Assembly: GCA_030746775.1 (NCBI GenBank)
Contig: JASLLZ010000004.1
Span: 1 to 64,000, forward strand
Direction of reading: 5' to 3'
Length of the DNA stretch: 64,000 bases
Source of the DNA: Rhodospirillales bacterium
Lineage (GTDB): Bacteria; Pseudomonadota; Alphaproteobacteria; Rhodospirillales; JASLLZ01
The stretch's first letter is position 1. Every line of letters starts with the position of its first letter. A program made the position numbers and the translations under genes. Shown in pieces: positions 6,823 through 49,685 of the stretch. The notes beneath the pieces were generated by a model that made no database searches, was not told the DNA's origin, and was given only the letters and a program-made list of their open reading frames with translations.

Positions 6823-8205
6823 GTGATCGCCCGGCAGGGCATGGCGGGCCGGGGTCTCCCCGCGCTTGGTCTTGCCGCCCTGGCCGCCCTGGTCCTCGCC
6901 CTCGTCCTGGCCCTGGTTGGGCCGGTCCGCGCCCTGACCTTCGACGAGGCGCGCCACCTGTTGAGCCGCACCGGGTTCGGCACGCCAAGCGCCGCCGGCG
7001 TCACCGCCCTGATGCCCCTCGATCACGCGGCGGCGGTGGACCGCCTGCTCGGCGGCCTCGGCGCCGAACCGGTGACGCCGCCGCCGCCCCGGGTCGGGGA
7101 AAGGCCGCCGCCGCCCGCCGCCTGGGCGGCGCTTTCGGCGGCCGAGCGGCGGGCCTTGCGGACACGAAGGAGCGAGCGCGGTAGCCAACTTCGGGAATGG
7201 TGGCTCGGCGAGATGCTGGAGACCCCCTCGCCGTTGACCGAACGCCTGGTCCTGTTTTGGCACAACCACCTTCCCTCTTCCCTGCGCCAGGTCAAGTGGC
7301 CGGCCTACATCTACCGCCAGAACGCGACGTTCCGGCGCCACGCGGCGGGCAATTACGCCGACCTCCTGCGCCAAGTGGCCAAACAGCCGGCCATGCTTCT
7401 CTATCTCGACGGCCAGACCAACCGCGCCGGCAACCCGAACGAGAACTTCGCCCGCGAATTCCTTGAGCTGTTCACCTTCGGCGAAGGCCTGGTCTATACG
7501 GAGGGTGACATCCGCGAGGCGGCCCGCGCCTTCACCGGTTGGCGGATCGACCCCGAGAGCGGCGGTTTTACCTTCGCAGGCGCCCTGCACGACGGCGGCA
7601 TCAAGACCTTCATGGGACGCCGGGGTCCCTTCACCGGCGACGACATCATCGATATCGTGCTCGACGAACCGCGTGTCGCCCGGCACATCACCGAGAAGCT
7701 GTGGCGTATCTTTATCTCCCCTTCCCCGGACCCCACCGAGGTTGGCCGGCTGGCCACGCAATTCCGCCGTTCGGGCCATGCCCTCGGACCTCTGTTGAAG
7801 GGGCTTTTGACTTCGCCCCATTTCCTCAATCCGGCCAATCGGGGCGTCCTCGTCAAATCGCCTATCGACCTGAGCGTCGGAACCTTGCGCGTGTTGCGGC
7901 TCAGGCCCGACGACAAGGCCTGGTTGGCGTCGTTCAACCGCCGCCTCGGCCAGGACGTCCTCGACCCGCCCAATGTCAGGGGGTGGCTGGGGGGGACGAC
8001 CTGGATCACTTCGGCCACGCTGCCGACGCGCCACGCCTTCCTTCTCGACCTTTGGCAAAGCGTGGAAAAGACGGCGACGGCCGCGGCGGACCGGTTGGCG
8101 CCTTTGCTTTTGCCGCTGCCGGCGGCGGAGCCGGCGCCGGCCGGCGAAGGGCCTCACGCGCGCCTGCGCCGCCTGTTGCTCGATCCGGCGTTTCAACTGA
8201 AGTGA
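6823..8205 (+). CDS. DUF1800-family secreted protein
   Basis: A 460-aa DUF1800 protein (family function unknown). The N-terminus has a long hydrophobic signal (LAALAALVLALVLALVGPVRA) and the mature part begins LTFDEARHLLSRTGFG, the usual DUF1800 opening. NENFAREFLELFTFGEG and REAARAFTGWR are the family's most conserved stretches, and PPNVRGWLGGTTWI is its C-terminal signature. GTG 6823 starts the only open frame long enough for the signal. It is followed 11 bp later by a DUF1501 protein, a pairing seen in many bacteria; the two are thought to be exported and to act together, but no reaction is established. Confidence 0.85.
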   Translation: MIARQGMAGRGLPALGLAALAALVLALVLALVGPVRALTFDEARHLLSRTGFGTPSAAGVTALMPLDHAAAVDRLLGGLGAEPVTPPPPRVGERPPPPAAWAALSAAERRALRTRRSERGSQLREWWLGEMLETPSPLTERLVLFWHNHLPSSLRQVKWPAYIYRQNATFRRHAAGNYADLLRQVAKQPAMLLYLDGQTNRAGNPNENFAREFLELFTFGEGLVYTEGDIREAARAFTGWRIDPESGGFTFAGALHDGGIKTFMGRRGPFTGDDIIDIVLDEPRVARHITEKLWRIFISPSPDPTEVGRLATQFRRSGHALGPLLKGLLTSPHFLNPANRGVLVKSPIDLSVGTLRVLRLRPDDKAWLASFNRRLGQDVLDPPNVRGWLGGTTWITSATLPTRHAFLLDLWQSVEKTATAAADRLAPLLLPLPAAEPAPAGEGPHARLRRLLLDPAFQLK

Positions 8206-45805: not shown

Positions 45806-45838
45806 TTTGACAGGCGCGTCGCCCGGCACCTATGGTTT
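45806..45838 (+). repeat. Direct repeat (promoter), copy 1
   Basis: A 33-bp sequence beginning TTTGACAGGCGCG, 32 of 33 bases identical to 47025-47057. It contains TTGACA (45807-45812), an 18-bp spacer and TATGGT (45831-45836), a strong sigma-70-type promoter for the acyltransferase gene 44 bp downstream. The following bases CGGGCCGGCTCTG resemble the first codons of the selenoprotein gene after copy 2 (ATGGTCCGGCTCAG), so the duplicated stretch appears to include an eroded gene start. Confidence 0.8.
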
Positions 45839-45879: not shown

Positions 45880-47286
45880 ATGTCGGTGTCACACTCGACC
45901 GAGCCACGCCATCGAAACCTCCACTATATCGAGTGGCTGCGCGTGGCGATCATCGCGTTGGTGGTCGCCCATCACGCGGGCCAAGCCTACGGACCCACCG
46001 GCGGCGAATGGCCGGTTACGGAAACGGTCAGCAGCCCGTTCCTCGGTCCCTTCTTTGCCGTAAACGCCGGGTTTTTCATGGGGCTCTTTTTCCTCGTCTC
46101 GGGCTATTTCACCGGCGGGTCCCATGATCGCAGAGGCAGCGCCAGGTTCGCCAAGGACCGCTTAATCCGCTTAGGCGTTCCTGTGGCCTTCGTTTCGTTG
46201 TTCGTTTTTGGACCCGCATTCTATTTTTCCGCGCCCAGCGAAACGTCCTTTTGGCATTACTGGCTGTGGGATTATGTCGGCGAATGGAATGTGGAAATGG
46301 GCCATCTTTGGTTCGTCGCACATTTGCTGGTTTATTCCCTTCTCTACGCGCTGTGGCGGCGATTGCCGTTCGCGGGCGACTCTTCCGATCGGGCCAAGAC
46401 CCGGGTCCCGGGCCACCTGACATTTCTGGGTTTCGCCGTTTTCCTGGGGCTAGTCGGCGCCGCCGTCCGGGCCCGTTTTCAACAAGATTATTGGGTCGAT
46501 ATCTTTTGGCTTGTGCCGGCGGAACTTGTCCACCTGCCGCAATATCTGAGCCTCTTTTTCATCGGTGTCCTCGCCGGTCGGGGCGAGTGGTTCCAACGCG
46601 TGGCAACGCCGGTGGGTTATGTCTGGCTGGGGATTGGCCTGTCCTGCGCGATCTTTGCCTACGCGGTCATGCTTGGCCTTTTTCCCAATTTAATGGCGTC
46701 CGACCATGCATTTATTTATTTCGCGGTCTGGGAGGCCTTCTTGTGTACGGGGCTGTCGGTTGGGCTGATCGTGGTGTTCCGCGAGCACGCGAACGCACCC
46801 GGGCGCTTGCTGCGATTCCTGGCCCCCAGTGTCTATAGCGTTTATATCATTCACGTTTTCGTCGTCATCGGACTCCAGATGCTGATGTTTCCGCTACATC
46901 TTGGCGCCCTGGCAAAATTTATCATTGTCACCGGGCTGGGGATCGGCCTTAGCTTTCTGATCGCCTACCCTTTGCGCCGGCTGCCCGGCTTGAGGCAAAT
47001 CCTTCAGGACCGGCGCGGCGGGCGTTTGACAGGCGCGGCGCCCGGCACCTATGGTTTCGCATGGTCCGGCTCAGTCAGTTATCGGAAGCCTTCCGCACTC
47101 ACCTTCTCGACCTGCCTTGCCCGTCTTTCGCTACCCAGCCCTGGGTCACCGGCCCGTCGGTTGAGAAGTCCCGGGTGGCGATCATTTCCACCGCCGGGCT
47201 GCATCGCCGCGACGACCGCCCCTATTCGGTCGGCGCCACCGATTATCGCATCGTTCCGGGTGAGACCGCCGCCGCCGATGTGGTGA
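45880..47286 (+). CDS. Acyltransferase-3-like membrane protein, 3' end run-on
   Basis: An integral membrane protein of the acyltransferase 3 (OafA/NodX-type) family, with about ten helices. The N-terminal HYIEWLRVAIIALVVAHHAG carries the conserved Arg and His of the family; it would O-acylate a surface sugar or lipid. The family-like part ends near LRRLPGLRQILQD (about 47010). The frame then reads through the second promoter copy and 226 bp into the selenoprotein gene in another frame, giving a Ser/Pro/Arg-rich tail unlike any acyltransferase. The native stop was probably lost when the gene was placed here. Functional status uncertain. Confidence 0.75.
   Translation: MSVSHSTEPRHRNLHYIEWLRVAIIALVVAHHAGQAYGPTGGEWPVTETVSSPFLGPFFAVNAGFFMGLFFLVSGYFTGGSHDRRGSARFAKDRLIRLGVPVAFVSLFVFGPAFYFSAPSETSFWHYWLWDYVGEWNVEMGHLWFVAHLLVYSLLYALWRRLPFAGDSSDRAKTRVPGHLTFLGFAVFLGLVGAAVRARFQQDYWVDIFWLVPAELVHLPQYLSLFFIGVLAGRGEWFQRVATPVGYVWLGIGLSCAIFAYAVMLGLFPNLMASDHAFIYFAVWEAFLCTGLSVGLIVVFREHANAPGRLLRFLAPSVYSVYIIHVFVVIGLQMLMFPLHLGALAKFIIVTGLGIGLSFLIAYPLRRLPGLRQILQDRRGGRLTGAAPGTYGFAWSGSVSYRKPSALTFSTCLARLSLPSPGSPARRLRSPGWRSFPPPGCIAATTAPIRSAPPIIASFRVRPPPPMW
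47025..47057 (+). repeat. Direct repeat (promoter), copy 2
   Basis: The second copy of the 33-bp repeat, differing at one spacer base. TTGACA is at 47026-47031 and TATGGT at 47050-47055. Transcription would begin near 47061-47062, which is the ATG of the selenoprotein gene, so its mRNA may be leaderless. The copy lies inside the run-on 3' end of the acyltransferase frame. Confidence 0.8.
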
Positions 47287-48278
47287 TGAGCCATGTGTCC
47301 TCCAACTTCGACCGCTCGGGATTTCAACAAGACATCAACGTCGTCTTTCCCATCGACCGCCTGCGCGAACTGGCCGGGGCGGGCCGCATCGGCTCGGTCG
47401 CCGATTATCACTATTCGGTCATGGGCGCGACGACGCCCGAGGACCTGGAGACGGCAACCCACGAGATGGCGGGCCATCTTAAGGCCGACGGTGTCGATGC
47501 CGTGCTTTTGGTCCCCATATGACCGAACTGCACGCGCGCCGTGGGCGGGCTGGCACACTATCTGGAAGGCGGCGGTCTGGCGACGACCCAGATCAGCCTT
47601 ATTCGTGAACACTCCGAACGCATGCGCCCGCCGCGCGCGCTGTGGGTTCCGTTCGAGTTGGGCCGCCCCCTCGGCGCGCCCGACGACGCGGCCTTCCAAT
47701 CACGGGTCGTGATGGCGGCGCTCGACTTGCTGGGCGCCGAGGAAGGCCCCGTATTGGCCGATTTTCCCGAAGAGGCGCCCGAGGCCGACGCCATCACCGG
47801 CTGGGCCTGCCCGATCAACCTGGCGCCGCCAAGGGACGAGGCGGAAACCGCGGCACAACGCCTGGACGCCGCCTTCGCCGATGAGATCGAACGGCTTCGC
47901 CCCTGGCACGACCTGGCGGTCGAGGCGCTGGGCCGGACCATGGTCGGGGCCAGCGGTTTGGATATCATCGAGGCGGGGCGTTTCATCGCCGCCTGCCTGG
48001 AACCCGAGCTTCCCGCCAGTCCACTGCCCGAGTTGTCGCCCACCGAGGTCTTGCGCTTGGCCTGCGACGACGTCAAAGCCTTCTATCTGGAAGCGGCGGC
48101 GGCCCAGCCCGGCCAGGCCACCAGCCGCGATCTGGCCGAATGGTTCTGGGGCGAGACGGCGGCGGCCAAGGTTATCATCGCGCTCAGGGCGCTGTGCGTG
48201 GAAAGCGAGGACAAAGGGCTGCGCGCCTTGATCGGCATCCTGGTGCCGAGGGCGCAACTCCACCGCATGGACGGCTAG
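47061..48278 (+). CDS. GrdB-like selenoprotein (glycine/sarcosine/betaine reductase B family), in-frame UGA = selenocysteine
   Basis: A 405-residue protein read through TGA 47520-47522 as selenocysteine (residue 154). The part before it has VAIISTAGLHRRDDRP, MSHVSSNFDRSGFQQDINV and ADYHYSVMGATTPEDL and ends DAVLLVPI. The same frame continues after the TGA as PNCTRAVGGLAHYLEGGG and runs 251 more codons (PPRALWVPFELGRPLG). The resulting U-P-N-C-T-R matches the redox motif UxxCxxR of the GrdB family. There is no ribosome site or start codon near the TGA that would make the second half a separate gene. A short stem CGCC-GUG-GGCG follows the UGA and could be part of a SECIS. Reductase partners GrdA/C/D are absent, so the reaction is unknown. 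Confidence 0.85.
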
Positions 48279-49326: not shown

Positions 49327-49379
49327 CACCAAGGTTGAAGGGCCGGATCGCGGCTGCTTTCTTGACGGAGGAAAAACCC

Positions 49380-49681
49380 ATGGGCGAGATCGCCAACGTC
49401 ACCGAATACGACGTCAAGCCCGAGCACCGCGAAGCCTTCGAGGCGCTTCTCGGCGACCACGCCCGGCGCACCCTGCGCGTCGAGCCCGGGTGTCTACGCT
49501 TCGACATTCTTGTTCCGCGCGGCGCCAGCGCCACCGAAAACCCGACCCGCATCCTCCTCTTCGAGCTCTACCGCGACGAGGCGGCATACCGGGAACACAC
49601 GGATTCCGACCGCCTGGCCAGTTTCCGCGCCGCCTATTCCGACATGCTGGCCGACCGCCGCATCGTACTGGTGGACGTGAC

Positions 49682-49685
<4 letters not shown>
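49380..49685 (+). CDS. Antibiotic biosynthesis monooxygenase (ABM)-domain protein
   Basis: A 101-aa dimeric ferredoxin-like fold protein of the ABM/YgiN type. Pattern: [21 protein letters not shown], then [31 protein letters not shown] and a C-terminal helix ([15 protein letters not shown]). Relatives are cofactor-free quinol monooxygenases or LsrG-like isomerases. It follows the second URO-D-like gene by 53 bp and probably ends that transcript; its stop overlaps the convergent copA stop by 4 bp. Confidence 0.82.

Follow-up and report, generated by a model that had tools for sequence, protein, structure and literature searches.

A predicted UGA-decoded selenoprotein from a putatively distinct branch of the PrdB/GrdB superfamily in Proteobacteria

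The window analysed here is a stretch of 64,000 nucleotides from the draft genome of a Rhodospirillales bacterium. It contains a gene of 405 codons (47061-48278, + strand) with a TGA inside the reading frame. The best explanation overall, which we hold with good confidence on the grounds of sequence comparison, is that this gene encodes a UGA-decoded selenoprotein and that, within the PrdB/GrdB superfamily, the protein belongs to a proteobacterial branch of its own. More tentatively, and with somewhat less than an even chance, the branch may consist of pyruvoyl-independent selenoenzymes, for which no Cys counterpart was found and which would cleave C-X bonds by reduction as part of catabolism in marine and other environmental Proteobacteria. 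If that is true, the abundant sea-water 'proline reductase' selenoproteins are a different, uncharacterised enzyme.

The gene and its in-frame UGA

Translation of the frame reveals the TGA at 47520-47522 (+) as its sole internal stop; the terminal codon is TAG. The motif at the internal stop is V-P-I-U-P-N-C-T-R-A, where Sec is residue 154. The original prediction had described U-P-N-C-T-R at the stop and a single frame across it with family sequence on either side, and both are borne out, the second by the PrdB profile TIGR04483, which spans residues 34-223. It had also assigned the site to a UxxCxxR motif. The UxxC part stands, with Cys157 being invariant, but the final arginine does not, as R, C, S or T are found there among the homologues. 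Mechanical ORF calling indeed splits the gene into two pieces (47061-47522 and 47541-48278), as was expected of automated callers.

Conservation of the TGA among homologues

The patterns used to collect homologues excluded the Sec site. A genome collection of 84,980 species was scanned and yielded 32 related loci, every one of which has TGA as the equivalent codon. Other in-frame stops are absent from the 31 homologues that are longer than a fragment. When the genome of the window and its relatives were examined (40 genomes), ten gave matches, and each truly similar match across the site contains a single TGA, the close matches of the order-level relatives included. The stop-free matches in these 40 genomes are limited to a remotely related Cys protein (C-P-V-C, 34%) and a match restricted to the C-terminus. 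Taken together, TGA occupies the same codon, with the motif U-P-x-C-T, in all of the approximately 45 family sequences, and no Cys version of the Sec branch was found among them. The alignment that had been proposed to decide between Sec and Cys at residue 154 therefore gives TGA throughout and Cys in none.

In comparison to the locus of the sister species (L021) the dN/dS ratio is 0.28 before the TGA and 0.22 after it, and 0.24 for the whole gene. Such purifying values on both sides indicate that both parts are translated. A pseudogene with a nonsense mutation, or a pair of separate genes, would also account for a frame that is broken by a TGA and followed by a GTG at 47541, from which translation could restart. 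However, GTC or GTT replaces this GTG in 21 of the 43 distinct sequences, so that the GTG is not a conserved start, the same TGA is present in all homologues covering the site, and both halves are under purifying selection. On these three points the pseudogene and the two-gene readings are ruled out, and we give them practically no credence. A different genetic code with UGA as an ordinary sense codon is judged unlikely too, because TGA is restricted to the UxxC site, where a hairpin follows it.

The gene can be present in more than one copy. Two tandem full-length Sec paralogues of 407 and 405 residues, 4-5 bases apart, are seen in L022 and L023 from position 8001 onward, and the genome G003 has five matches to the Sec family.

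A SECIS-like hairpin downstream of the TGA

The hairpin that was to be sought 3' of the UGA is present at 47530-47554 (+). Its core stem is formed by 47534-47540 with 47544-47550, the loop (47541-47543) is GUG, and outer pairs connect 47530-47531 with 47553-47554. Nearly all homologues can form this structure, 14-30 bases from the first base of the TGA, and the loop is always GU[GCU]. Standard pairs occupy 272 of 301 pair cells of the family alignment. Synonymous resampling with the codon usage of each gene gave 181 +/- 6 such cells, and shuffling of synonymous codons within columns gave 256 +/- 2.3, with a maximum of 264 in 2000 shuffles. The pairs 15-31 and 16-30 vary on both sides, for example from C-G to U-A. 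Third-position entropy is 0.3-0.8 bits in the hairpin codons (1.2 bits in the loop codon) and mostly 1-1.9 bits elsewhere. Pairing and silent-site conservation are hence family-wide and above the synonymous controls. The window hairpin by itself has one G-G mismatch and an unexceptional folding energy (p ~0.10), so the evidence for a SECIS is comparative. Judged from the alignment, the conserved hairpin appears to be SECIS-like, and binding of SelB is predicted.

The invariance of the codon, this hairpin and the purifying selection on both halves together support the proposal that the TGA encodes Sec. The family to which the gene belongs is almost certainly a family of selenoproteins.

Selenocysteine machinery

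The genome of the window is a draft of 3.63 Mb in 203 contigs (97.6% complete, 6.6% contamination). A search of this draft for the Sec machinery, suggested as a check together with the original prediction, gave a divided result. The selA gene is intact (574 bits) and under constraint (dN/dS 0.17), selB contains an in-frame TAG, and selC and selD were not found in the draft. The TAG of selB (L006:3235-3237, minus strand; G000:C88) is immediately followed by GTG and lies, between the GTP-binding loop and DVPGHE, at a loop codon that varies. Some relatives have AAG at this codon, which is one base off, so a sequencing error or a minor variant would suffice; the TAG may be a nonsense mutation, a strain variant or a sequencing error.

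A tRNA-Sec candidate at L014:1497-1586 (G000:C136) reaches 52.8 bits with Rfam (gathering score 47) and was rejected, as ARAGORN reads it as tRNA-Ser(UGA). A tRNA-Ser(UGA) above the tRNA-Sec gathering score of Rfam is a false-positive trap in searches for selC. A selC nested within selB, as described in other Alphaproteobacteria, was also looked for and none was found.

The sister genome (G001) has selD, a true selC and selA together on one contig, and no selB was found in its assembly. Its selC and selD are adjacent (L125:5718-6881, G001:C13). When the genome of the window was searched with the DNA of this region, selA and its surroundings matched and the selC-selD stretch did not. Synteny breaks right beside selC-selD, with other genes in place (L137:1-5262, G000:C181). 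According to their sequences, the genes of the block in place of selC-selD are methylene-THF reductase-like, corrinoid-type methyltransferase-like and activase-like. The absence of the pair may reflect a gap, a rearrangement or a real loss. Among the 18 gene-carrying genomes selB, selD and a strong selC are found in 17 each. Several relatives (L085, L087, L089-L092) have a selD with an in-frame TGA, which is probably a selenoprotein itself.

The interruption of selB between the GTP-binding motif and the rest, together with a selC-selD pair that has no DNA match and would have stood at a synteny break, is what one would expect if the family consists of selenoproteins but decoding of Sec is being lost in this organism. 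The UGA would then terminate translation or be poorly read, and the gene would be a recent relic. We regard this as unlikely. The incompleteness and contamination of the fragmented assembly weigh against it, and the loss of one stretch would take both selC and selD. Moreover, the TAG falls on a variable codon one base from the AAG of relatives, selA is intact and constrained, and the selenoprotein gene retains both its hairpin and its low dN/dS. Insertion of Sec at residue 154 is probably going on at present in the organism of the window.

Protein family, domains and structure

The protein can be divided into a PrdB/GrdB-like domain (residues 1-232, 47061-47756, +) and a mostly helical C-terminal domain (residues 235-405, 47763-48275, +). 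The latter is absent from PrdB, and a Pfam search with it gave no family match. In the first domain the GRDB family PF07355 matches residues 33-151 with 45.7 bits (gathering score 22), covering only the end of the profile (positions 222-345). TIGR04483 (PrdB) matches residues 34-223 with an E-value of 3e-29 and 102 bits, which is below its equivalog cut-off of 300. Profiles of GrdB score 41-66 bits, among them TIGR01917 with 41 bits at a cut-off of 602. The description of the protein as GrdB-like thus holds for membership of the superfamily, for which PF07355 is above its cut-off, but by score the protein is closer to PrdB. Its identity to clostridial and enterococcal PrdB is about 30-32%.

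In a tree of 40 members with PrdB and Cys relatives, the Sec family is split off by one branch (87/96), and long branches separate the groups. The MAG L046, titled Bordetella parapertussis, has the Sec family and groups with environmental betaproteobacterial MAGs; its species label looks doubtful.

The AlphaFold2 model has a mean pLDDT of 87 and a pTM of 0.87 and places Sec154 between a predicted strand (147-151) and a helix (155-170). No solved relative was found in the PDB, neither by sequence nor by fold (Foldseek). Residues shared with PrdB around N82, D84, D91, N93, P97 and R100 are invariant. The branch appears to be a widespread and distinct proteobacterial group of PrdB/GrdB superfamily proteins.

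The missing pyruvoyl subunit

The family PF09338, which comprises the pyruvoyl subunits GrdE and PrdA, was found in none of the 18 genomes that carry the gene. The positive controls worked: the records of Acetoanaerobium and Enterococcus gilvus gave GrdE- and PrdA-type matches, the PrdA type in both. The claim that the gene lacks reductase partners, which had been made from its surroundings, can accordingly be extended to whole genomes for the substrate-activating subunit; for GrdA, GrdC and GrdD it applies to the window. The second claim, that the enzyme does something other than glycine reduction, is supported by this absence in combination with the low score of TIGR01917. As PF09338 is missing in 18 of 18 genomes, the names 'D-proline reductase' and 'glycine reductase' are not supported.

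The protein could nevertheless be a true D-proline reductase PrdB, or protein B of a glycine, betaine or sarcosine reductase, whose partner is encoded at another place in the genome. The roughly 31% identity to PrdB and the E-value of the TIGR04483 match point in this direction, as does the filing of marine Sec homologues as PrdB since 2005 (PMC1088965, PMC2398784). But the score is only 102 where 300 is the cut-off for PrdB, no PrdA or GrdE is encoded in any of the 18 genomes while both control records were positive, the protein has 405 residues compared to 237-241, and the family forms a clade of its own with long branches. This reading is already largely contradicted and seems very improbable to us.

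Gene neighbourhood and promoter

A URO-D-like protein, an ABM protein and hydantoinase-B proteins near the gene had been taken as a clue to its function. This clue fails, for the neighbours are not conserved among lineages. URO-D is absent from the sister locus, none of the other copies (41 loci) was found to have it nearby, and the proximity of ABM and hydantoinase-B is kept only within the genus. In the sister locus a hydantoinase-B gene lies directly upstream and an ABM gene directly downstream (46 bp), and the acyltransferase gene is missing. URO-D and the acyltransferase, both being absent from the sister locus, were discarded as functional clues, and so were ABM and hydantoinase-B because their persistence is limited to the genus. 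The ABM-family monooxygenase-like gene of the window is located at 49353-49685 (+). The 46 bp spacing in the sister makes a common transcript conceivable, and the selenoprotein gene and ABM are possibly co-transcribed in the genus.

Other lineages have TauD-type, luciferase-like and Rieske oxygenase-like genes, CoA ligases or transferases and TctC transporters nearby. Within 2.5 kb, TauD is found in 7, TctC in 5 and luciferase-like genes in 3 of the 41 loci, as raw counts. These neighbours suggest a role in catabolism and point to no particular substrate.

A promoter-like sequence, TTGACA-N18-TATGGT (47026-47055, +), ends five bases before the ATG. A like arrangement is present in the sister locus (L021/L055), and L026 also has a promoter-like match just upstream. 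In many other members of the family, a Shine-Dalgarno-like sequence is present instead. The spacing between promoter and ATG suggests that the selenoprotein mRNA may be leaderless. Two promoter-like repeats of 33 bases (45806-45838 and 47025-47057), which are 97% identical, flank the upstream acyltransferase gene. This gene starts at 45880, its frame continues to 47286 inside the selenoprotein gene, and it looks inserted.

Proposed chemistry

In the mechanism that we propose, SelB and Sec-tRNA would use the hairpin 47530-47554 to insert Sec at the UGA. The nucleophile would be Sec154, which sits at the N-terminal end of a helix that follows a beta strand; Cys157 would resolve it as a selenenylsulfide, and thioredoxin-like donors would reduce the latter. 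Working within catabolic clusters, the enzyme would reductively split a polar C-X bond (C-N, C-halogen or C-S) in a small organic substrate. In related enzymes Sec is the nucleophile and a pyruvoyl group or another carbonyl is the activator (PMC10838667; PMC13188914). Here pyruvoyl activation would have to be replaced by the C-terminal domain or by the substrate itself. If PrdB, GrdB and the fluoroacetate-cleaving GrdB-like protein are taken as models, C-X cleavage is the most likely chemistry, though we would not put it as high as an even bet. Against it stands that the known relatives use pyruvoyl or an equivalent carbonyl, and this subunit is missing here.

A UxxC at a strand-helix junction is a geometry common to many thiol-redox proteins. 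The protein could accordingly be a thiol or selenol redox protein, such as a peroxidase or a disulfide or protein-repair reductase, that cleaves no C-X bond of a substrate. The lack of a partner subunit and the several copies in one genome, G003, would agree with this. However, the invariance of the residues shared with PrdB and the position of the copies next to varied catabolic genes and transporters, and not to stress genes, argue against it, and we consider a redox protein a possible reading, though less likely than not.

Comparison with known systems

The GrdB-like protein FarB of fluoroacetate-cleaving Synergistota (PMC10838667) resembles the reductive C-X cleavage preferred here in that its selenol is proposed to attack such a bond and its operon is substrate-specific. 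It differs in having the GrdE-like FarE as its partner and in feeding GrdA (PMC10838667), and a GrdE-like protein was not seen in the genomes studied here. With GrdB itself (PF07355, TIGR01917/TIGR01918) the protein shares a PF07355 match above the gathering cut-off and the UxxC Sec site. However, only the end of that profile is matched, the score is far under the equivalog cut-off, and a GrdE-type partner is missing.

Cys proteins annotated as 'glycine/sarcosine/betaine reductase selenoprotein B family protein' are known from Roseomonas (WP_207415257.1) and Haematobacter (WP_035710215.1). They are stand-alone members of the same superfamily from Alphaproteobacteria. They have CPxC at the Sec site and 302-308 residues, are about 32-34% identical and form a separate clade.

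PrdB is similar in residues 34-223 (TIGR04483), in the position of Sec within UxxC and in the DIN..FPLDRL and MG motifs. It is different in its length of 237-241 residues, in its motif TAGUGTCHR instead of VPIUPNCTR and in working with the pyruvoyl subunit PrdA, and the protein of the window scores below the PrdB equivalog cut-off.

The marine metagenome PrdB selenoproteins share Sec, UxxC, pfam07355 and their abundance in sea water, and the accessible parts of the reports assign their function by homology to PrdB (PMC1088965, PMC2398784, PMC9402790). The reports give 42 Sec 'PrdB' genes for the Sargasso Sea in 2005 (PMC1088965), 235 for GOS in 2008 (PMC2398784) and 6.4% of the selenoprotein genes in a later marine survey (PMC9402790). 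A Sec protein of the GRDB family in a marine bacterium is therefore not new. Within the literature covered, which is incomplete, we found no paper that disputes the proline-reductase name for this branch. With their extra domain, no pyruvoyl subunit in any of the 18 genomes and no Cys versions found, the present proteins would be a distinct variant, and the marine 'PrdB' selenoproteins likely belong to this long branch. Sec 'PrdB' is among the commonest selenoprotein families of sea-water metagenomes and was named by homology. An extra domain and a missing required subunit in a large proteobacterial branch render a name that implies D-proline or glycine reduction doubtful, and an abundant marine use of selenium becomes a defined biochemical question.
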